Source: Armatimonadota bacterium
GTDB taxonomy: Bacteria; Armatimonadota; Fimbriimonadia; Fimbriimonadales; Fimbriimonadaceae
Length of the DNA: 64,000 bases
Assembly (NCBI GenBank): GCA_018268355.1
Contig: JAFDWR010000004.1
Location: 310,404 to 374,403, forward strand
Direction: 5' to 3'
The notes beneath the pieces are model-generated. The model ran no database searches and was not told where the DNA came from. It saw nothing but the letters and a program-made list of their open reading frames with translations. This document shows positions 14,252-23,782 of the stretch, in pieces; positions within the stretch are counted from its first letter, which is position 1, and each line of letters opens with the position of its first letter. The position numbers were made by a program, and so were the translations under genes.

Positions 14252-16576
14252 ATGCACGCCCTCCGCGTTCTCGAATTCTCCAAGGTCCTCGCCAGGATTC
14301 AGCGTCATGCTGAGTCCGAGCTTGGTGCTGCGGTGGTCGAGGGCCTTGCGCCGAGCTTTGTCACCGAAGAGGCCACGCGCCGACTCGCGATGACCAAGGA
14401 GGCCTATGAGTGCATCGCGAATGCCTCGCCTCCGAGCCTCGTCGGACTCCGGGACCTGCGCCGGTCGCTCGACCAGGCCGCAAAGGGCGCGACCCTCGCG
14501 GGGGAAACGCTTTGGTACGTCGGCCACGCGCTCACCGGGATGCGCGAGATGAAGGCGTTCCTTTCGGGCCGCGCCGAACGGGTCCCCCTCCTTGCGGAAG
14601 AAGCGCAATCATTGCCCATCGAGCAACGGCTGGAAGATGCCCTCCACGCGAGCTTGGAAAGCAGCGGCGAAGTGAAAGATGGGGCGAGCACGACCCTCGC
14701 CGACCTTCGCCAGCGGCAGCGAAACACGGTTCAGCGCATCCAGGAGCGCATTCAAAGCACGACCACCGGCCCATTGCGCGAATTCCTCAGCGACCCGATT
14801 TACACCGTTCGCGAGGGCCGCTACGTTGTGCCAGTGAAGTCGGAATACCGCTCGCGGGTGAAGGGCGTGGTCCACGACGCTTCGGCTTCGGGGGCGACGG
14901 TTTACATCGAGCCAGAAGAGGTGTTGCAACTCGGCAACACGCTGCGCGAACTCGCGGGTCGCGAGCGGGAGGAGATCGGCAAGATCCTCGCGGCTCTCTC
15001 CAAGCGGGTGGGCGAGGTGGGCGGTCAGATCAGCGTCGGGCTCGACGCGGGGGCGCGCATCGACGCCGCGCTTGCGATTGCGAAGTATGCGTTTGAGATC
15101 GGCGGCGTCTTTCCGGAGGTGCTGTCGGGGCCGGTGCTTGAGATCCAAAAAGGGAAGCACCCTTTGCTCGACGCGGAGAAGGTGGTTCCGCTCGACTTTG
15201 CGGTCGGCCGCGAGGTCCAGGGCGTGCTCATCACGGGTCCGAACACGGGCGGAAAGACGGTCGCGCTGAAGGTCGTTGGCCTGTTTGTGGCGATGCTCCA
15301 AACCGGCATTCCGGTTCCCGCGCTCCACGTCCGCGCAGGGCACTTCAACGGGCTTTGGGCGGATATCGGCGACGAACAGTCGATTCAGCAATCGCTCAGC
15401 ACCTTCAGCGGCCACATCAAGAACATCTCGGAGGCCTTGCGCGAGATCAAAAAGGGCTCGCTGGTGCTGTTTGACGAACTCGGGGCGGGCACTGACCCCG
15501 CCGAGGGTGCCGCGCTCGCGAAAGCGATCTTGCTCGAGCTGCAGGACCAGGGTGCGATCACGGTTTCGAGCTCGCACTATGGTGAACTGAAGGCGTTTGC
15601 CTTCACCCAGGCCGGGTTCCAGAACGCGGCGATGGAGTTCGACTTAAAGTCGCTGCGGCCGACTTATCGGCTGCTGATGGGGGCTTCGGGGGCGTCGCAG
15701 GCGCTTCGCATCGCCGAGCGATTTGGGATTCCGCCGCGCGTGATCTCCCGTGCGAAGGAGGGCCTCAGCGACCAGCATGTTGACCTTGCGCTGCTGATGG
15801 AGGAGCTCGACCGGTCGCAAAAGCGGGCTCGTCAGGCTCAATCGGAAGCGGACCGTCGCACCGAGGAGCTCCGCAAGCTGGAGGAGCGGGCGCGCAAGAA
15901 GCTGCTGGAGGCAGAGGAGATTCGGGACAAGGCGGCGAGCCGGGCCGGGAAGGAGCTGGAGGAAACCCTGCGCGAACTCCGACTCCAGGCGCAGGAGCTC
16001 TTTGACGAGCTGAAGCGGAACCCCGCCCGGGCGACCGAGATTCGCCGCGAACTCGAGCAGGTTCAGCTCAAGGGTTCGCAAAAGAAGCGTGCGCTCGGTC
16101 CCAAGGAGCGTCCGGTCGCGGCGACGACCTCGGTCCAGCTCGAGCCGGGGGCGAAGGTGAAGATGGACGGCTATTCCCATGCAGGCGTCGTGCTCGAGGC
16201 GCCCAAGGCGGGGCGGGTGAAGGTGCAGTTTGGGTTGATGAAGATGGAGGTGAAGGTGAGCAGTCTCACGCTCAGCCACGAGGTTCCGAAGGCCGCGCCT
16301 CGCCCCAACTTGCAGTTGCAAAAGGTTTCGACTGCGACGACCGAGATCAGCCTTCGCGGGATGCGATTTGAGGATGCCCAGCTTGAACTGGAGAAGTTCA
16401 TCGACGACTCCGTGCTCGCGGGCTTGGAGTCGGTGCGGATTGTCCACGGCAAGGGCGAAGGGATTTTGCGGAAGATGGTGTCGGACATGCTGCGTCGGCA
16501 TCGGCACGTTTCGAGCTTTGCGGAGGCCCAGCCCGCCGAGGGCGGGGCTGGAGTGACGATCGCCCGCTTGGGTTGA
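14252..16576 (+). CDS. mutS2: MutS2 endonuclease/ATPase
   Basis: A 774-residue protein starting MHALRVLEFSKVL after a good AGAGGAG site. The upstream open frame to 14111 is antisense to the DNRLRE gene. The core and clamp-like helices cover about residues 1-310. Walker A GPNTGGKT is near 329-336, and the Walker B/signature DELGAGTDPAEGAA is near 407. A coiled coil runs from about 520 to 600. A KOW-like strand region precedes a C-terminal Smr nuclease domain (about 700-774, with LRGMRFEDA and HGKGEGILR). In other bacteria MutS2 acts on recombination intermediates or collided ribosomes. The gene is followed by a repeat-filled gap. Confidence 0.96.
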   Translation: MHALRVLEFSKVLARIQRHAESELGAAVVEGLAPSFVTEEATRRLAMTKEAYECIANASPPSLVGLRDLRRSLDQAAKGATLAGETLWYVGHALTGMREMKAFLSGRAERVPLLAEEAQSLPIEQRLEDALHASLESSGEVKDGASTTLADLRQRQRNTVQRIQERIQSTTTGPLREFLSDPIYTVREGRYVVPVKSEYRSRVKGVVHDASASGATVYIEPEEVLQLGNTLRELAGREREEIGKILAALSKRVGEVGGQISVGLDAGARIDAALAIAKYAFEIGGVFPEVLSGPVLEIQKGKHPLLDAEKVVPLDFAVGREVQGVLITGPNTGGKTVALKVVGLFVAMLQTGIPVPALHVRAGHFNGLWADIGDEQSIQQSLSTFSGHIKNISEALREIKKGSLVLFDELGAGTDPAEGAALAKAILLELQDQGAITVSSSHYGELKAFAFTQAGFQNAAMEFDLKSLRPTYRLLMGASGASQALRIAERFGIPPRVISRAKEGLSDQHVDLALLMEELDRSQKRARQAQSEADRRTEELRKLEERARKKLLEAEEIRDKAASRAGKELEETLRELRLQAQELFDELKRNPARATEIRRELEQVQLKGSQKKRALGPKERPVAATTSVQLEPGAKVKMDGYSHAGVVLEAPKAGRVKVQFGLMKMEVKVSSLTLSHEVPKAAPRPNLQLQKVSTATTEISLRGMRFEDAQLELEKFIDDSVLAGLESVRIVHGKGEGILRKMVSDMLRRHRHVSSFAEAQPAEGGAGVTIARLG

Positions 16577-16588
16577 GGGTTTTTGGGG

Positions 16589-16732
16589 TTGTTCCCGCCG
16601 GCCCGCAGCGTGAGTCATCGTTTTTGGTGGGGCGGATCGTGCTTAGGGGCAGAGTGTTCCCGCCGGCCCGCAGCCACGCCCCAGCTTGGGACCCCGACGC
16701 TCCGCGTCGCCCAAGCTACCGCCCCGGCGGGG
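16589..16732. repeat. Intergenic repeat, module A, copy 1
   Basis: About 144 bp starting 12 bases after the mutS2 stop. It is closely similar to 22069-22213 (module A, copy 2), and the stretch 16684-16732 is base-for-base the same as 22165-22213. Inside are nested inverted repeats: AGCTTGGG/CCCAAGCT (16683-16690 and 16710-16717) around GACGC/GCGTC (16696-16700 and 16704-16708). A direct repeat, GTTCCCGCCGGCCCGCAGC, occurs at about 16591 and 16656. It has the look of a REP-like extragenic palindrome. No coding function. Confidence 0.85.
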
Positions 16733-16848
16733 ACAAGCCCGTGGGGGATTTAGAGCTCTCGCCTCGGCGCCCTGCGTCTAATTGTCGGCGGAGGTCCTTG
16801 TTGAGAGATGGGCCGAGGCTGTGTTTGCGTCAATGGAAATCCGTCACC

Positions 16849-16885
16849 CGCGCCCGGGGCGGAGCCGAGCGCAGCGAGGCGAGGG
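16849..16885. repeat. Intergenic repeat, module B, copy 1
   Basis: A short GC-rich module (CGCCCGGGGCGGAG followed by AGCG units and GAGGG) that resembles 22331-22366. On its own it might be a chance match, but it sits between modules A and C at both loci. The 110 bases between modules A and B (16733-16848) show nothing I can interpret. Confidence 0.5.
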
Positions 16886-16910
16886 TGGCGTGAGCGGTGT
16901 CACGAGCCGC

Positions 16911-17105
16911 CTGCCCCATAGCACGCTTTGACCATCCCGCAAGCACGGGGACAGCCTCGGGCGGGCGCGGGGAAGGCTGCAATCTCAAAATCCGCCTGCC
17001 CCATAGCACGCCTTTGCGCACTTGGGAGCGCGGGGACAGCATGCCCCATAGCACGCCTTTGACCAATCCGCAAACACGGGGACAGCCTCGGGCGGGCGCG
17101 GGGGC
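16911..17105. repeat. Intergenic repeat, module C, three tandem-like copies
   Basis: Three related units: 16911-16975, 16995-17040 and 17041-17105. Each begins with (GC)CTGCCCCATAGCACGC or a close variant and ends in CACGGGGACAGC or GCGGGGACAGC. The first and third go on to CTCGGGCGGGCGCGGGG. A fourth, more diverged unit is at 22393-22457. The spacer 17106-17193 before sdhA has no clear promoter apart from the ribosome site. The sdhA frame happens to stay open through the units, but they are not coding. Confidence 0.8.
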
Positions 17106-17193
17106 ACTGCACCACCAATCCGAGCCCACCTTGCAATCCAAGACAGCCAAGCGCACTCGCCCATCGGAACTGCGTAGAATAGAGAGGATTGAT

Positions 17194-19110
17194 ATGGCAG
17201 CGCAGCGCACAGTCATCGTCGTAGGTGGAGGACTCGCAGGCCTGATGGCCGCGATGAAGCTCGCCGAATCGGGAAACAAGGTCAAGATCTTCTCGCTTGT
17301 CCCCGTCAAACGGTCGCACTCCGTGTGTGCCCAAGGGGGCATCAACGGTGCGGTGAACCTTCGCGGTGAAGATGACTCGCCTTATCTCCACTTTGAAGAC
17401 ACCATCACCGGCGGCGACTTCCTCAACCACCAGCCGCCCGTTATGCGGATGGCCGAGCGCGCCCCCGCCATCATCTACCTCCTCGACCGAATGGGCGTGC
17501 CCTTCAACCGAACGAGTGAGGGCCTGCTCAGCTTCCGACGATTCGGTGGCACCCTGAAGCACCGAACCGCCTATGCCGGTGCGACCACCGGCCAGCAGCT
17601 TCTTTACGCCCTCGACGAGCAAGTCCGGCGATGGGAAGCCTCTAACATGGTCGAAAAGTTTGAAGGTTGGGAGTTCCTTGGCATCGTCAAGGACAACGAG
17701 GGTCGATGCCGTGGCATCACCGCCCAAAACCTCCGCACCATGGAGATCGAATCGTTTGCCGCCGATGCCGTCATCATGGCGACGGGCGGAAACGGCGTCA
17801 TCTTCGGCCGCTCCACCAACTCGATCATCAACACCGGCGCGGCGGTCTCGATCTGCTACCAACAGGGCGTCAAGTACGGCAACCCTGAGATGGTCCAGAT
17901 CCACCCGACGGCAATCCCCGGCGAAGACAAGTGCCGACTGATCTCCGAATCGGTGCGAGGCGAAGGTGGCCGAATCTGGGTCCCGCGTGACCCGATGGAT
18001 TCCCGAAGGCCGACCGACATCCCCGAATCGGACCGCTGGTACGTCTGCGAAGAGCTCGACCCGGTTTACAAGAACCTGCTCAGCCGCGACCTCGTCAGCT
18101 TCATCATCTACTGCGTCTGCCGCATGGATCGAGGCATCCAAAAGCGACAGCAGGTCTATCTCGACATCACCCAGCTTCACCACAGCCGGGGCGGACCCTA
18201 TTCGCGCGACCAGATCAACGACAAGCTGGAAGGCGTTCTCGAGATCTACGAGAAGTTCATGCGCGAGGACCCGATCGAGCTTCCGATGCGCATCTACCCC
18301 GCCGTCCACTACACGATGGGCGGACTCTGGGTCGACTACAACCTCGATGGCGAAGGCAAGTGGAACGTCGACGAGCCGCGCAACCAGATGACCAACATCC
18401 CCGGCCTTTATGCCGCCGGTGAGTGCGAGTTCCAGTACCACGGCGCAAACCGCCTCGGTGCAAACGCGCTCCTCGCCTGTCTGGTCGGTGGCGAAATCGC
18501 CGCCCAAGGCGCAAACGCCTACCTCCGAGAGGCGGGCCTCGGTTCGGATTCGACCCCCGCAAGCGCGCTGGCCGAAGCGACCAAGGAAGCCCAAGGCAAG
18601 TACGACAATCTCCGAAAGAGCAACGGTAAGGAGAACCCCTACCAGCTGCACGACGAGCTTGCAAACATCATGTGGAACCGATGCGGCATCTGGCGAACTC
18701 AGAAGGAGCTCGTCGAGGCCCAGTCGCTCCTCGCCGACCTCAGCGAACGCGCCCACCAGTGCAACCTCATCGACGATGCTGGTTGGACGAACCAGGCGGT
18801 GCCGTTCACCCGAGCACTCGTGAACATGATCGAGCAGTCGAAGGCGATTGTCGGTGGAGCGATGGTCCGCGAAGAAAGCCGCGGCGCCCACTTCAAGATG
18901 GACACCCCCGAGCGCGACGACAACAAGTGGCTGCGAACCACGCTCGCGACGTGGACGGGCAAGGGACCCGAGTTCAGCTTCGAAGAGATCGACACCCGCT
19001 ATATCGCCCCGCGCGCCCGAAAGTATCGAATCAACCAGATCAAGGTTGTGAAGGAACTCATGGGCGATGCAGCGCTCGCCGGCGTGGGCGCGGCAAAGGT
19101 CGATGCCTGA
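17194..19110 (+). CDS. sdhA: Succinate dehydrogenase / fumarate reductase flavoprotein subunit
   Basis: 638 residues. It oxidises succinate to fumarate with covalently bound FAD. The dinucleotide site VVGGGLAGLMAAMKLAE is at the N-terminus. The FAD-linking histidine lies in KRSHSVCAQGGINGA, the non-E. coli (Bacillus or fumarate-reductase B type) arrangement. Substrate-site elements are HPTAIPG, SESVRGEGGRIW and a C-terminal QYHGANRLGANALLACLVGG. ATG 17194 follows an AGAGAGG site. The frame is open to 16897 through intergenic repeats, and I reject that extension. The iron-sulphur (sdhB) and membrane (sdhC) subunits are not adjacent; instead the next gene overlaps by 8 bp. Confidence 0.96.
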   Translation: MAAQRTVIVVGGGLAGLMAAMKLAESGNKVKIFSLVPVKRSHSVCAQGGINGAVNLRGEDDSPYLHFEDTITGGDFLNHQPPVMRMAERAPAIIYLLDRMGVPFNRTSEGLLSFRRFGGTLKHRTAYAGATTGQQLLYALDEQVRRWEASNMVEKFEGWEFLGIVKDNEGRCRGITAQNLRTMEIESFAADAVIMATGGNGVIFGRSTNSIINTGAAVSICYQQGVKYGNPEMVQIHPTAIPGEDKCRLISESVRGEGGRIWVPRDPMDSRRPTDIPESDRWYVCEELDPVYKNLLSRDLVSFIIYCVCRMDRGIQKRQQVYLDITQLHHSRGGPYSRDQINDKLEGVLEIYEKFMREDPIELPMRIYPAVHYTMGGLWVDYNLDGEGKWNVDEPRNQMTNIPGLYAAGECEFQYHGANRLGANALLACLVGGEIAAQGANAYLREAGLGSDSTPASALAEATKEAQGKYDNLRKSNGKENPYQLHDELANIMWNRCGIWRTQKELVEAQSLLADLSERAHQCNLIDDAGWTNQAVPFTRALVNMIEQSKAIVGGAMVREESRGAHFKMDTPERDDNKWLRTTLATWTGKGPEFSFEEIDTRYIAPRARKYRINQIKVVKELMGDAALAGVGAAKVDA

Positions 19111-20743
19111 ACTGGCCGTTGACCTACTGATTGTTGGCGGAGGAACCGGAGGCTATGCGGCTGCGATGGCAGCGTGCAGCCTCGGACTCCGCGTCCTGAT
19201 GACCGAGGAGACCGATTGGGTCGGCGGTCAGCTCACCAGTCAGATTGTCCCGCCCGACGAACACCCTTGGATCGAAACCCTCGGCTGTACGGAGCGTTAC
19301 CGCGCGTACCGTGAGGCCGTCCGCGAGAGAACCAGGGCCACCCGGCCCCTCACCGACCTCGCGATGGCCGACCGATTCTTGAACCCCGGATCGGGATGGG
19401 TGAGCCGCCTTTGTCACGAGCCGCGCATTGGTTGGGAAGTTCTCACCGACGCGCTTGAGCCGTTCATCACCCAGGGTCTGCTCGACCTGCGACTGGAGAC
19501 GGTTCCGGTTCGCGCGGATGTTGACGGTCACGCGCACCCTTCGCCGGACGAAGCTGGTTTTGTGCCTGGCCAAGCCTACCGAGCGGGGACGGCTTCGCGG
19601 GTTCGGGCGGTGGAGTTCCTCGACCGGCGAACCGGGAACACGTTTGTGGTTTCCGCGCCGTATGTGCTCGATGCGACCGAGCTCGGCGACCTTTTCCCGA
19701 TGACGGGAACGGGCTATCACGTCGGAGCGGAATCGAAGGCTGATACTCATGAGCCGCATGCCGTCGACGGTCCCGCCGAGTGGGACAACGTTCAGGGCAT
19801 CACGTGGTGCATGGCGCTCGCGCTCGACGAGGGCTCGAACCGCGTCATCGACCGGCCCGCAAACTACGACTTCTGGCGCGAGTATCACCCGCCATTTTGG
19901 CCCGGAAAGCACCTCGGCTTCGACGTTCTTCATGCGCACTCTGGTGTGGTCAAGGAGCTTCCGCTGTTCGGTCGCAGGCCGGAGGACTGGTACGCGCTCT
20001 TCCCCTATCGCCAGATCATCGATCCGCACCTTTGGTCGGAGCCGACCCACCCGGTGACGGTGGTCAACTGGCCGCAAAACGACTACTTTGTCGGCACGAT
20101 CCTCGATGTTCCCGCGGCGGTGAAGGCTCAGCGGCTCCAGGAGTCGCGCGAGCTTAGCCTGAGCCTGCTCTACTGGCTGCAAACCGAAGCTCCGCGCCAC
20201 GATGGCGGGGTTGGCTATCCTGGTTTGTACCTACGGCCGGACATCACGGGTACAGACGACGGCTTTGCTAAGTATGCTTACATCCGAGAAAGTCGCCGCC
20301 TCGATGCTCACTTCATGGTGCTTGAACAGCACGTCGATGCGGGTTTGAATCCGGGCGAGGTGCTTGCGCCGAGCTTCCGCGATTCGGTGGGAATCGGCGC
20401 CTATCGCCTTGATTTGCATCCTTCGACGAACGGGGCGAACACGATCGACACGAGCACGCTGCCGTTTGAAGTCCCGCTTGGGGCGCTGGTGAGCCGGTCG
20501 ACGAGCAACTTGATTCCTGCCTGTAAGAACCTTGGCGTGACCCACCTCACCAACGGCTGCTATCGGTTGCACCCGATCGAGTGGAACATCGGCGAGTCGG
20601 CCGCGCTGCTCGCGGCCTACTGCATGAAGACCGGTGTGGAGCCGGCCGCAGTGTTGGACTCCGATGACCATCTGCGCGCTTATCAAAACCTATTGAGTCA
20701 GAGTGGTATCCCGCTGCGCTGGCCACGATTCAAGCCGCTATGA
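19103..20743 (+). CDS. FAD-dependent oxidoreductase (FAD_oxidored family)
   Basis: 546 residues from the ATG at 19103 (MPELAVDLLIVGGG), which overlaps the sdhA stop by 8 bp and follows an AAAGG site. The N-terminal FAD fold GGGTGGYAAAMAACSLGLRVLM is followed by TEETDWVGGQLTSQ, the signature of the FAD_oxidored group (sometimes called xanthan-lyase-like in annotations). GALVSRSTSNLIPACKNLGVTHL and IGESAALLAAYCM near the end are typical of these proteins. The substrate is unknown. There is no signal peptide, so it should be cytoplasmic. It is the second of a three-gene overlapping set, sdhA-this-acpS. Confidence 0.88.
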   Translation: MPELAVDLLIVGGGTGGYAAAMAACSLGLRVLMTEETDWVGGQLTSQIVPPDEHPWIETLGCTERYRAYREAVRERTRATRPLTDLAMADRFLNPGSGWVSRLCHEPRIGWEVLTDALEPFITQGLLDLRLETVPVRADVDGHAHPSPDEAGFVPGQAYRAGTASRVRAVEFLDRRTGNTFVVSAPYVLDATELGDLFPMTGTGYHVGAESKADTHEPHAVDGPAEWDNVQGITWCMALALDEGSNRVIDRPANYDFWREYHPPFWPGKHLGFDVLHAHSGVVKELPLFGRRPEDWYALFPYRQIIDPHLWSEPTHPVTVVNWPQNDYFVGTILDVPAAVKAQRLQESRELSLSLLYWLQTEAPRHDGGVGYPGLYLRPDITGTDDGFAKYAYIRESRRLDAHFMVLEQHVDAGLNPGEVLAPSFRDSVGIGAYRLDLHPSTNGANTIDTSTLPFEVPLGALVSRSTSNLIPACKNLGVTHLTNGCYRLHPIEWNIGESAALLAAYCMKTGVEPAAVLDSDDHLRAYQNLLSQSGIPLRWPRFKPL

Positions 20744-21105
20744 TTGTGGGTCTCGGGATCGACACCGTGGACATCGCCCGGGTTCGCGAGGCGATGCGGC
20801 GGCGCCCTCGGTTTGCGGAGCGCATTCTCACCCCCGACGAGCGCGAGCTGGGTTCGTCGGCGGAATTTGTCGCTGGTCGTTGGGCGGCGAAAGAGGCAAT
20901 TTATAAGGCGGTTGGTTTGCCGCTCACTTGGCAGCAGGTCGAGGTCTTGCCCGACGAGTTAGGTGTGCCGAAGGTGCGGATCAGCAGCCCGTCGTTCGAT
21001 CCGGGGCGGCTCCATCTTCATGTTTCGATTACCCATGAGCGCACCCACGCGACCGCGGTCGCGGTGCTCGACCGGGTCGTTTACCAGGCGCCTAACTTCT
21101 GTTAG
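20740..21105 (+). CDS. acpS: Holo-[acyl-carrier-protein] synthase
   Basis: 121 residues. It moves 4'-phosphopantetheine from CoA to apo-ACP, which switches fatty-acid synthesis on. The two metal/CoA motifs are complete: GLGIDTVDIARV at the start and FVAGRWAAKEAIYKAVG in the middle. VSITHERTHATAVAVL follows near the end. The ATG overlaps the oxidoreductase stop by 4 bp, and the 3' end overlaps the convergent HhH gene by 4 bp. The length is normal for AcpS. The pairing with sdhA and an oxidoreductase looks opportunistic, not functional. Confidence 0.96.
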   Translation: MIVGLGIDTVDIARVREAMRRRPRFAERILTPDERELGSSAEFVAGRWAAKEAIYKAVGLPLTWQQVEVLPDELGVPKVRISSPSFDPGRLHLHVSITHERTHATAVAVLDRVVYQAPNFC

Positions 21106-21539
21106 AACTCGAGGATTGAGGCCTTCATCTTCGGGCCAATCCCGGCCATCTGGTCCAGTTTGCCCGCTTCGGCGGCCGCTTTGAGTTCGTGGAGGCTCTT
21201 CGCGCCGACCTCTTGGAAGAATCGTCTTGCCGTCTTTGCGCCGAGTCCGGGGACGCGGGTCATCGTCACCACGGACCACGGGGCCTCGTTCTCCCATTCG
21301 ATCTGCTTGCTCGACTTTCCGTCGAGCATGTATTCGCGGATGTATTGGGCGATGAGCTTGCCGACCTGGGGGATTTCGGTGAGGCGCCCCTCGCGCATCA
21401 TGAGCTCCGCGGATTCGGGCATCTTCTCGATCGTGCGCGCGATCTGGGTGTAGCGGGTGGCGTGGGACTCTTCGTAGCCCGCGATAATAAGAAAATCGCG
21501 CAGGTCGCGCAGGTAGTTGGCGAGCTCGGCGTTGGTCAT
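21102..21539 (-). CDS. Stand-alone helix-hairpin-helix protein like the N-terminus of PolX
   Basis: 145 residues from the ATG at 21539 (MTNAELANYLRDLRDFLIIAG); the longer open frame to 21650 adds an unconserved tail. The layout matches the first part of family X DNA polymerases: an 8-kDa-like helical domain with an aromatic/charged pattern (FLIIAGYEESHATRYTQIARTI), then two HhH units (LTEIPQVGKLIAQYI and MTRVPGLGAKTARRFFQEVG) and a third (LDQMAGIGPKMKASI). It ends where the palm would start, so no nucleotidyl-transfer residues exist. It likely binds DNA ends or gaps non-specifically. Truncated PolX domains of this kind occur as separate genes in some bacteria. Confidence 0.82.
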   Translation of the reverse strand: MTNAELANYLRDLRDFLIIAGYEESHATRYTQIARTIEKMPESAELMMREGRLTEIPQVGKLIAQYIREYMLDGKSSKQIEWENEAPWSVVTMTRVPGLGAKTARRFFQEVGAKSLHELKAAAEAGKLDQMAGIGPKMKASILEF

Positions 21540-21616
21540 GGTTTTCAGATTAGCGCGTTTTCGGCGAGATTGCACGGGCGGGAGTCCGTGGTTTGTGTCG
21601 TAAAGTGTTGAGAGCA

Positions 21617-22066
21617 GTGAAGACGATTCGGTCGGTGTGTGCTGGAGCAATCTTGTTGACCCTATGCCTTGGGGGCTGTCAGCCGATGGAGCATCCCAAG
21701 CTGGGCGAGGAGCTTTATATGAGCACGTACGCCTGGTTCAGCACCCGCGTTGACGACAGTGTCCGCGACTACCGGCTGCGGAATGGGAAGTGGCCGACGA
21801 CGATGACGCAGGCCTTTGGCCCGGGCCCTTGGCGGACCCAACCCGGCAAAATGCAAGCCTACTTGAAGGAAGGGGACCTCCGTTTTGAGCTCAAGTCGCC
21901 GCCGGAGGACATTGCGGCGGTTTACGAGATCCAGTATCCGCACTACGACGCGTTCAAGATTGAGGTGCACGCCTACGATCCTGAGATGGAGTCGGCGGAG
22001 GAGGGTGTGAGGGCGTCGGTGGGGTTGGGGTTGGATGCCGCTTGGCCTGCCGCGCGCGGGGATTGA
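21617..22066 (+). CDS. Lipoprotein of unknown function
   Basis: About 149 residues if the GTG at 21617 is used (MKTIRSVCAGAILLTLCLGGC, with a good lipobox). The TTG at 21593 and GTG at 21605 are also in frame. After the cysteine come QPMEHPKLGEELYMS, an SVRDYRLRNGKWP stretch reminiscent of the loop after the helix in type II pseudopilins, and a beta-rich end. The final 19 residues run up to the edge of the repeat complex that starts 3 bases after the stop. I do not recognise the family. Confidence 0.72.
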   Translation: MKTIRSVCAGAILLTLCLGGCQPMEHPKLGEELYMSTYAWFSTRVDDSVRDYRLRNGKWPTTMTQAFGPGPWRTQPGKMQAYLKEGDLRFELKSPPEDIAAVYEIQYPHYDAFKIEVHAYDPEMESAEEGVRASVGLGLDAAWPAARGD

Positions 22067-22068
22067 AG

Positions 22069-22213
22069 GGCTCCCCGCCGACCCGGTGCGTGAGGCATCG
22101 TGTGAAGGTGGGGCGGATCGTGCTCAGGGGCAGAGTGCTCCCGCCGGCCCGGGGCCACACCCCTGCTTGGGACCCCGACGCTCCGCGTCGCCCAAGCTAC
22201 CGCCCCGGCGGGG
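22069..22213. repeat. Intergenic repeat, module A, copy 2
   Basis: About 145 bp beginning 3 bases after a plus-strand stop codon, as module A copy 1 does after mutS2. The last 49 bases are identical to 16684-16732, including the AGCTTGGG... and GACGC... inverted repeats; the rest has scattered differences. The spacer 22214-22330 to module B is not similar to the spacer at the other locus. Confidence 0.85.
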
Positions 22214-22330
22214 TTTTCTCCACTTAGGGTTGGAGCTACCCTCCCAAGGTCTGTCGGTGACGCACGACCGGCGCAGTGATCCTTTGGCGCCAGTTTTGCA
22301 GTCCGACTGCTGGAGAGGGTGCAGTTCTTC

Positions 22331-22366
22331 CCCCGCCCGGGGGCGGAGGAGCGAAGCGACGAGGGA
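22331..22366. repeat. Intergenic repeat, module B, copy 2
   Basis: CGCCCGGGGGCGGAG followed by GAGCGAAGCGACGAGGG, similar to 16849-16885 with a few changes. It is placed between modules A and C, as at the first locus. Confidence 0.5.
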
Positions 22367-22392
22367 CAGGCCGCGGGCCCGGGCGGGGACAT

Positions 22393-22457
22393 CTAACCAT
22401 AACTCACGCTTTGACTATCCCGCAACACGGGGACAGCACCGGGCCGGGCGGGGGGCC
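22393..22457. repeat. Intergenic repeat, module C, single diverged copy
   Basis: A unit reading CCATAACTCACGC then TTTGACTATCCCGCAACACGG then GGACAGC and a G/C-rich tail, matching 16911-16975 with small changes. It ends next to the terminator of the S41 protease gene, so the whole gap 22067-22504 is repeat plus terminator, with no gene. Confidence 0.75.
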
Positions 22458-22490
22458 AAAACAAAACTGCCCCGCCCAAAAGGGCGGAGC
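22455..22490 (-). terminator. Intrinsic terminator of the S41 protease gene
   Basis: Stem CCGCCC/GGGCGG (22472-22477 with 22482-22487), extended by two pairs after a mismatch, with loop AAAA. On the minus strand it is followed by AGTTTTGTTTTGG. It lies 15 bases beyond the stop at 22505. Confidence 0.82.
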
Positions 22491-22504
22491 AGCACCAACG
22501 CAAC

Positions 22505-23782
22505 CTACGAGCCGCCGCGCAGTTTCTGCAGCGCAGCCTCGATCCCAGGATCGGGCTTGCCAGGTTCGGGGCGACCTTCCACCGTCACATCGACGGGGAT
22601 CGGGTTACCCTCCGGGCGGAAGCCCTTGATCGACACATAGTCGCTCACCGGGATCTGCAACTCGTACCCAAACGAGCACTTCTGATAAATCGAAGCGAGA
22701 ACCGCGCCGCGCGACGGCTGGCCGACGAGGATCGCACCCGCGACTTCCTTCAAAGCAAGAGCGGTGATCTCCGAGGCGCTCGCCGACCCTCGGTTGATGA
22801 GCACGGCGATCTTGCCCGCATAGGGCGTGAGCTTGCCGCGCGAGGTCTTGTACTTGTTCTTTGCCCACTCGGCAATGACCAACGGGTCATAGCTCGCAGT
22901 GCCCTTCTCCTTTGCGTATTCGTCCACCATGTCGCGGCGGATCATCGTGCCATAGGGCACATCGGTGGGGAGGAGGAGGTTGAGCAGGTGGCGAAGGTTG
23001 GCCACCGCGCCGCCGCCGTTGTTCCGAAGGTCGAGGATCAGATACTTGCGGGGGAACGCCTGTTCAAAGAGCTTTTCGATATCCTCGCGCTTGTAGCCAT
23101 TGGTGAACGAGTTGATGCGCACCACGGCAGCATCCTCGTCGATCATTTTCACCGTGTTCTCGCGGATCGCCGAGAAAGTTCCAGCGGTGAGTTCGACCTC
23201 GCGGGTGGTGCCATCGGTGGCCTGCACCTTGACCTTCAGGCTCGCGCCGACGTCCACGCGGAGCTGATCCGGCTCGGTCGCCGGCTTCCCGGCAGCTTCG
23301 ACAATCAGTTCGCCCACCTTGATGCCCGACTTCGCTGCCGGGCTGTTGGGGAGGATGTTCGTGACCTTGAGGCCCTTTTCATCCTTGGCGGTGCCGAGGC
23401 CGAGGCCGCTGGCGGTGGGGTTCACGCGCTGCTGAGCCTGCCGCGGAACCATGAACCGAACGTGGCTCACCTTAAACTCGCGGAGGGCGTTGTTGATCTC
23501 GCGGCTGAATTCCTCTGGCGTTTCCGCCTTGTCGAGGGCTTCCTTTCGCTTGGTCATGAACTCGGGCCACTTCTTGAAGTCGACCCCAGGCGTAAACGCG
23601 CGCTTCGAGAGGATGTCTTCGATCTCGCGGAGCAGGGTCGCCTTCGAATCGGCATCAAGTTTGGGCGTAACGGGATCCTGGTTAACGTTGGGTTTGGGCG
23701 GATCGCCGGGGGGCGGGGTCTGGGTCCATGCCGCGGGAACAATGAGGGCTAGCGCGGCAATGAAGGAGGCAAGTCGCTTCAT
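22505..23782 (-). CDS. Exported S41 peptidase with PDZ domain
   Basis: 425 residues from the ATG at 23782 (MKRLASFIAALALIVPAAW, a signal peptide). A Pro-rich linker and a helical region lead to a PDZ-like domain (about 140-215, GLKVTNILPNSPAAKSGIKVGELIVEAAG). The S41 core follows, with YLILDLRNNGGG and the probable serine in INRGSASASEI. The position where CtpA-type enzymes carry the catalytic lysine (GxxTxGKG) reads GQPSRGAVLA, so the usual Ser-Lys pair may be missing. It could be inactive or use the serine differently. The upstream frame is antisense to the helicase and is not used. It is divergent from the helicase, with 30 bp between starts. Confidence 0.9.
   Translation of the reverse strand: MKRLASFIAALALIVPAAWTQTPPPGDPPKPNVNQDPVTPKLDADSKATLLREIEDILSKRAFTPGVDFKKWPEFMTKRKEALDKAETPEEFSREINNALREFKVSHVRFMVPRQAQQRVNPTASGLGLGTAKDEKGLKVTNILPNSPAAKSGIKVGELIVEAAGKPATEPDQLRVDVGASLKVKVQATDGTTREVELTAGTFSAIRENTVKMIDEDAAVVRINSFTNGYKREDIEKLFEQAFPRKYLILDLRNNGGGAVANLRHLLNLLLPTDVPYGTMIRRDMVDEYAKEKGTASYDPLVIAEWAKNKYKTSRGKLTPYAGKIAVLINRGSASASEITALALKEVAGAILVGQPSRGAVLASIYQKCSFGYELQIPVSDYVSIKGFRPEGNPIPVDVTVEGRPEPGKPDPGIEAALQKLRGGS

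Follow-up and report, generated by a model that had tools for sequence, protein, structure and literature searches.

Two sites in a Fimbriimonadaceae genome as probable copies of a dispersed, non-autonomous family of DNA hairpin doublets

The two sites described here are probably copies of a dispersed, non-coding and non-autonomous family of DNA hairpin doublets of Fimbriimonadaceae, which would have spread in the manner of REPINs or MITEs and then persisted. They lie about 5.5 kb apart in the window, the whole stretch of 64,000 nucleotides that was analyzed, which comes from a genome of Fimbriimonadaceae (Armatimonadota) labeled G000 and called the host here. Relatives were located through MutS2 and belong to the same family and phylum.

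Each site is a divergent pair, in which a hairpin with its accessory module on the minus strand (C'-hairpin) is followed by a spacer and by a hairpin with module C on the plus strand. An earlier note had read both sites as three modules, A, B and C, in a common order with unlike spacers. Re-inspection confirms the order and the unlike spacers, but A is not a separate module, being the hairpin design of B on the opposite strand. The 49 bases reported there as shared (16684-16732 and 22165-22213) are exactly identical and are enclosed in a longer match of 107 nt at 94% identity (16626-16732 versus 22107-22213). Comparison of both sites revealed no long stretch of homology outside the elements, therefore the sites are not a segmental duplication. 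The plus-strand ORFs ahead of the elements have their last bases at 16576 and 22066, and the elements start about 6-15 nt further on. A start near a stop codon is thus true of both window copies but not a general rule: of the 79 copies scored, 71 fall outside predicted coding sequence, in both orientations and at varied distances.

The design of the element was derived by lining up copies from the host genome. It reads, from 5' to 3', a variable arm X, GGGCGGAG, a variable inner hairpin, CGAGGGnnnGGCnTCGGGC and arm X', the complement of X. Each hairpin has an outer stem (P1) and an inner stem (P2), both variable in sequence and complementary, and between them GGGCGGAG and CGAGGGnnnGGCnTCGGGC constitute a conserved, purine-rich, asymmetric internal loop. 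Module B shows this design on the plus strand. The module A variant, on the minus strand, has a longer inner stem, and where the design otherwise has GGGCGGAG it carries GGGCGGTAG. Module C is an accessory hairpin (CTGCCCCAwAGCACGC ... CGGGGACAG) placed after the closing arm, and behind it come nCGGGC and another copy of the same arm X'. There are zero to three C modules per side and, among the loci examined, they were found only in those of the host genome. A subset of elements in G098, G024 and G002 (L240, L272-L278 and L223) has a form of 90-101 nt with an inner-stem loop of about 30 nt. In the host locus L179 (G000:C7), runs of N at about 115-140 and 950-1000 lie within A-type hairpins, through either masking or difficult assembly.

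At the first site, the minus-strand element (16591-16732) contains an outer arm copy (16592-16600), a C-like module extending to 16652 (GGGGCAG at 16646-16652), the inner arm CCCGCCGG (16659-16666), a P2 stem (16684-16690 with 16710-16716) and the outer arm CCGGCGGGG (16724-16732). After a spacer (16733-16847) unlike that of the second site, the plus-strand element (16848-16889) is composed of the arm CCCGCGCCC (16848-16856), GGGCGGAG (16857-16864), the inner hairpin CCGAGCGCAGCGAGG (16865-16879) and CGAGGGTGGC (16880-16889). It has no proximal closing arm, and its arm can pair with the arm copy after C. The triple module C claimed for this site is present, with copies at 16911, 16996 and 17042, all on the plus strand. 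The first copy (16911-16954) is followed by CCTCGGGC and the arm GGGCGCGGG (16963-16971), the whole spanning 16911-16971, while the second and third (16996-17039 and 17042-17085) form a segment (16996-17102) that ends with a second CCTCGGGCGGGCGCGGG (17086-17102).

At the second site, the minus-strand element (22070-22213) has an outer arm copy (22072-22080), a diverged C-like module extending to 22133, a short spacer (22134-22139), the arm CCCGCCGG (22140-22147), the P2 stem GCTTGGG (22165-22171) with CCCAAGC (22191-22197) and the arm CCGGCGGGG (22205-22213). The spacer between the divergent elements (22214-22328) precedes the plus-strand element (22329-22390, a covariance-model match of 37.7 bits), which consists of an arm, GGGCGGAG (22341-22348), an inner hairpin, CGAGGGACAGGCCGCGGGC and a closing arm. 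Next come a single, degenerate module C (22392-22436) ending in CGGGGACAG, then CACCGGG and the arm CCGGGCGGGG once more (22444-22453), within a plus-strand segment at 22392-22455. A further hairpin (CTGCCCCGCCC-AAAA-GGGCGGAGCAG, 22468-22493), which includes GGGCGGAG, is located just before the end of a convergent gene at 22505 and resembles a terminator or a decayed element.

Further copies, which the earlier note had proposed to count, occur both in the host and in a dozen other genomes, so that the absence of copies named there as refuting its reading does not hold. The host has at least 69 elements, the number of covariance-model matches in selected G000 loci, host counts having been taken from searches and selected stretches. 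Exact patterns matched 48 B cores and 41 C modules over the whole host genome versus none in the reversed control, which excludes chance. The covariance model was built from 30 elements of two other genera. As these elements had been located with a sequence pattern in which the loop was fixed, the invariance of the loop is partly built in. With this model, 12 of the 84 other family genomes were found to hold 1-39 copies, and carriers, host included, amount to 13 of 85. The five richest genomes have 44, 39, 36, 29 and 10 copies and the eight others 1-6. No carriers were detected in Armatimonadota outside the family, all 13 positives among 275 genomes of the phylum being Fimbriimonadaceae. Counts are patchy between congeners, with 39, 29 and 1 copies in genus g25 and 5, 3, 6, 2, 6, 0, 0 and 0 in genus g30. 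No element match was obtained in the IMG/VR, phage and plasmid sequences searched, and no description of such repeats was found in the literature on Fimbriimonas and Armatimonadetes.

The arrangement of the copies points to the doublet as the unit. Among neighbor pairs at most 400 bp apart, listed from model matches and from A-type and window copies placed by hand, 24 of 27 are divergent, 3 have the same direction and none is convergent (p = 5e-12). The divergent form is present in G000, G001, G024 and G098, with a spacer of about 45-240 bp. In G000, composites of about 340 bp from unrelated loci align at 78-81%, and the alignment stops at the element ends. Since whole composites recur and no longer match is seen, the composite itself was copied. 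The spacers are mostly dissimilar, with few clear relatives (L165:2489 and L174:6134; L174:2560 and L179:950). The nearest neighbor of an element was in its own genome in 56% and 64% of cases (P1 or P2), versus 25% with label shuffling, meaning lineage-specific bursts or homogenization. The description of the repeat as mobile or recombining is supported by the recurring composites, the patchy congener counts and the combinations of P1 and P2, but no insertion event was caught. In G001, a 517-bp stretch with a divergent element pair is found at two contig ends (L188:2063-2579 and L280:239-754) with 93% identity, and it apparently arose by duplication of an RHS-like gene. L188 was considered as an autonomous transposon, with a gene between inverted elements, and this was rejected, the locus being a duplicated RHS-like gene region that holds elements.

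Copies also persist between species. In genus g30, G102 and G103 have orthologous elements at ychF-like, M32-like carboxypeptidase and sodA-like loci, named from their sequence, and G108 has the ychF-locus copy in common with them; its inner stem differs there and the loop is preserved. Between G102 and G103, the elements are identical at 66-68 of 71-74 positions, the right flanks at 47/60, 50/60 and 33/71, and the left flanks at 99/100 for ychF, which is coding, and at 73/107 and 79/104 for the other two. The carboxypeptidase copy has a compensatory change at one stem position, T-A to C-G. As orthologous copies are kept across species, they are long-lived and not merely hopping. The intergenic spans of G104, G105, G106 and G029 at the carboxypeptidase locus are short and element-free, and too diverged to define exact insertion ends. 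The sole close-range comparison is that of L239 and L281, where G103 keeps the outer hairpin and is without 39 internal bases. Insertion into a pre-existing hairpin was rejected at this locus because G103 keeps part of the loop motif of the element (GCCTGAAGCC), and for this reason the gap is most simply read as an internal deletion between GCC repeats and not as a clean insertion. A CCCCTCTCCG-TTTTTA-TGGAGAGGGG hairpin at the sodA-like locus is conserved in G102 and G103. Genus g30 harbors in addition a second, unrelated dispersed repeat of about 70 bp, found at L227 and, in G102 and G103, at some ten further positions.

The conserved orthologous copies could mean a host function instead of mobility. 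It is possible, although we regard it as tentative, that the elements are DNA structural sites recruited by the host for supercoil relief, binding of nucleoid proteins or gyrase, or bidirectional termination, inherited vertically and with their mobility in the past. Such sites would agree with the persistence of the three copies, loop included, in G102 and G103 (and of the ychF copy in G108), with the intergenic position of copies and with the T-run and A-run arms of the sodA copy, as in a bidirectional terminator. However, whole lineages are without the element (13/85 positive in the family, 13/275 in the phylum), some congeners are at zero, copies are homogenized within genomes and related composites are dispersed, all of which speaks against this reading.

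The two stems covary strongly. In a 30-sequence alignment made by sequence alone, without fit to structure, so that stem covariation is not built in, both partners have changed in 17 of the 18 pairs, covariation scores 0.539 versus 0.170 +/- 0.018 in shuffles (at most 0.19 with slid partners) and the paired cells are 75% versus 53%. Furthermore, one P2 occurs in the host with several P1 arms, and one P1 with several P2. The hairpins may be dispersed by an undescribed system that reads DNA secondary structure and a fixed loop motif, leaving the stems free, with P1 and P2 as cassettes exchangeable between copies via the conserved loop, but we consider this specific proposal rather doubtful. RNA stems tolerate G-U pairs but not A-C. 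Stem mismatches were 8 G-T versus 7 A-C among about 1,136 Watson-Crick pairs, and mismatches flanked by Watson-Crick pairs were 17 G-T versus 9 A-C in 141 distinct rows. As G-T is hardly commoner than A-C, the data favor a hairpin formed in DNA, or else a process at the DNA level that maintains the pairing, over an RNA hairpin, and the absence of a fixed orientation to genes supports this as well.

A structured non-coding RNA or cis-regulatory RNA motif, with compensatory changes due to selection on RNA, is improbable. The strong covariation of both stems and the conserved internal loop would suit such a motif, as would the copy found close to a tmRNA gene in G024 (L202:2500-2627, about 60 bp upstream, same strand). 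Against it stand the lack of orientation bias relative to neighboring genes, the lack of a clear G-T excess over A-C on either strand, the divergent doublets, the folding of the window copies, which is no better than that of shuffles, and the Rfam covariance models, which gave no match at gathering score in the window or loci except tRNA/tmRNA.

As the earlier note had suggested, the element would have no transposase of its own, and donors were sought among Y1 transposases, tyrosine recombinases and reverse transcriptases. None of the three richest genomes (G000, G001 and G024) has PF01797 (Y1, the IS200/IS605-type transposase, RAYT), though it is present in 29 of the 41 genomes searched. Reverse transcriptase (RVT_1) is absent from the same three and from most carriers, and mobilization by this enzyme was rejected because of its absence from the three richest. 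Tyrosine recombinases (PF00589) number only two in the host and are presumably XerC and XerD, as assigned from their number only. The suggested search for full-length donors yielded none with a gene, and that for target-site duplications gave nothing above a shuffled control beside 139 single hairpins. The doublets end in inverted hairpins, but the C modules obscure where exactly a doublet stops, and a clean empty site was not seen.

It is very unlikely that the elements are REPs or REPINs proper, moved by an IS200/IS605-like RAYT. They are palindromic and extragenic, with inverted doublets and composite clusters, and in the A subfamily GGTAG happens to precede the inner palindrome, but GTAG is found in only 5 of 148 elements and never in the terminal 12 nt on either side. 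Membership failed on GTAG and on PF01797, unless a highly diverged RAYT escapes this model. Finally, local duplication of one intergenic region, in spite of two copies 5.5 kb apart with a 107-nt match at 94%, is refuted by the dozens of additional copies across the genome and in other genera and by the lack of long homology outside the elements, and has practically no probability left.

In the preferred reading, a non-autonomous family of hairpin doublets, the unit would be the divergent doublet of two-stem hairpins (<- spacer ->), copied whole by a putative trans-acting enzyme. This enzyme may recognize the hairpin in extruded or single-stranded DNA by its conserved loop and paired stem and not by the stem sequence. 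Re-templating of the arms on each other by replication template switching, together with selection, would keep the stems paired, and tandem duplication between arm copies may account for the additional C modules. To our knowledge, most bacterial palindromic repeats conserve the sequence of their stems; here the stems are free, and only the pairing and the internal loop are kept. Template switching between inverted-repeat arms is described as a route to compensatory hairpin changes (PMC8794818), and it could maintain the pairing even if the sequence of the stems is not under selection. For the conserved loop, selection or protein recognition would still be required. The low G-T content makes the family a natural data set for compensatory changes arising from selection versus replication template switching (cf. 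PMC8794818). In addition, as the richest genomes are without the known REP mobilizer, the elements point to another route by which short hairpin DNA spreads.

Known systems share some of these features. Like REPINs and BIMEs (PMC3116915, PMC2817692), the elements are short extragenic palindromes that are mostly arranged as inverted doublets spreading together, and they form composite clusters and lineage-specific families; the inverted doublet as dispersing unit was found here in the 24 of 27 divergent pairs and the recurring composites. They differ by having no RAYT and no GTAG tag, by a hairpin of two stems around a conserved, asymmetric internal loop, by a spacer of about 45-240 bp, and by both stems being hypervariable through compensatory change. 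CGTC-tagged REPs, or RPE (PMC3733652; REP/REPIN and CGTC-REP definitions in PMC3733652 and PMC3116915), are also palindromic dimers without a dedicated transposase, but differ in size and loop design, and most copies here are without CGTC at the stem end (19 of 148 elements have it within 12 nt of an end). Pneumococcal BOX elements (PMC3049150), compared by published architecture only, have a fixed module order with one module variable in number (boxB there, C here), are MITE-like and clade-restricted and have strong secondary structure; however, terminal inverted repeats and target-site duplications are reported for BOX and none were found here, duplications having been sought beside single hairpins and related donors among the three enzyme families named above, and the stems here are locus-specific. 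Integron attC sites (PMC2727003) are alike in concept only, as folded DNA hairpins recognized by structure with little stem conservation. There is no cassette array here, and the host encodes just two tyrosine recombinases. Membership was rejected as the R (GTTRRRY) and L (RYYYAAC) boxes are lacking, being found in 2 and 0 of 148 elements, respectively. Since GTAG, RAYT, CGTC and the attC boxes all fail, the elements are not filed in those families. The element behaves like a non-autonomous repeat of REPIN/MITE type yet fails the defining REP features; such repeats are already known, and what is new is this clade-restricted variant.
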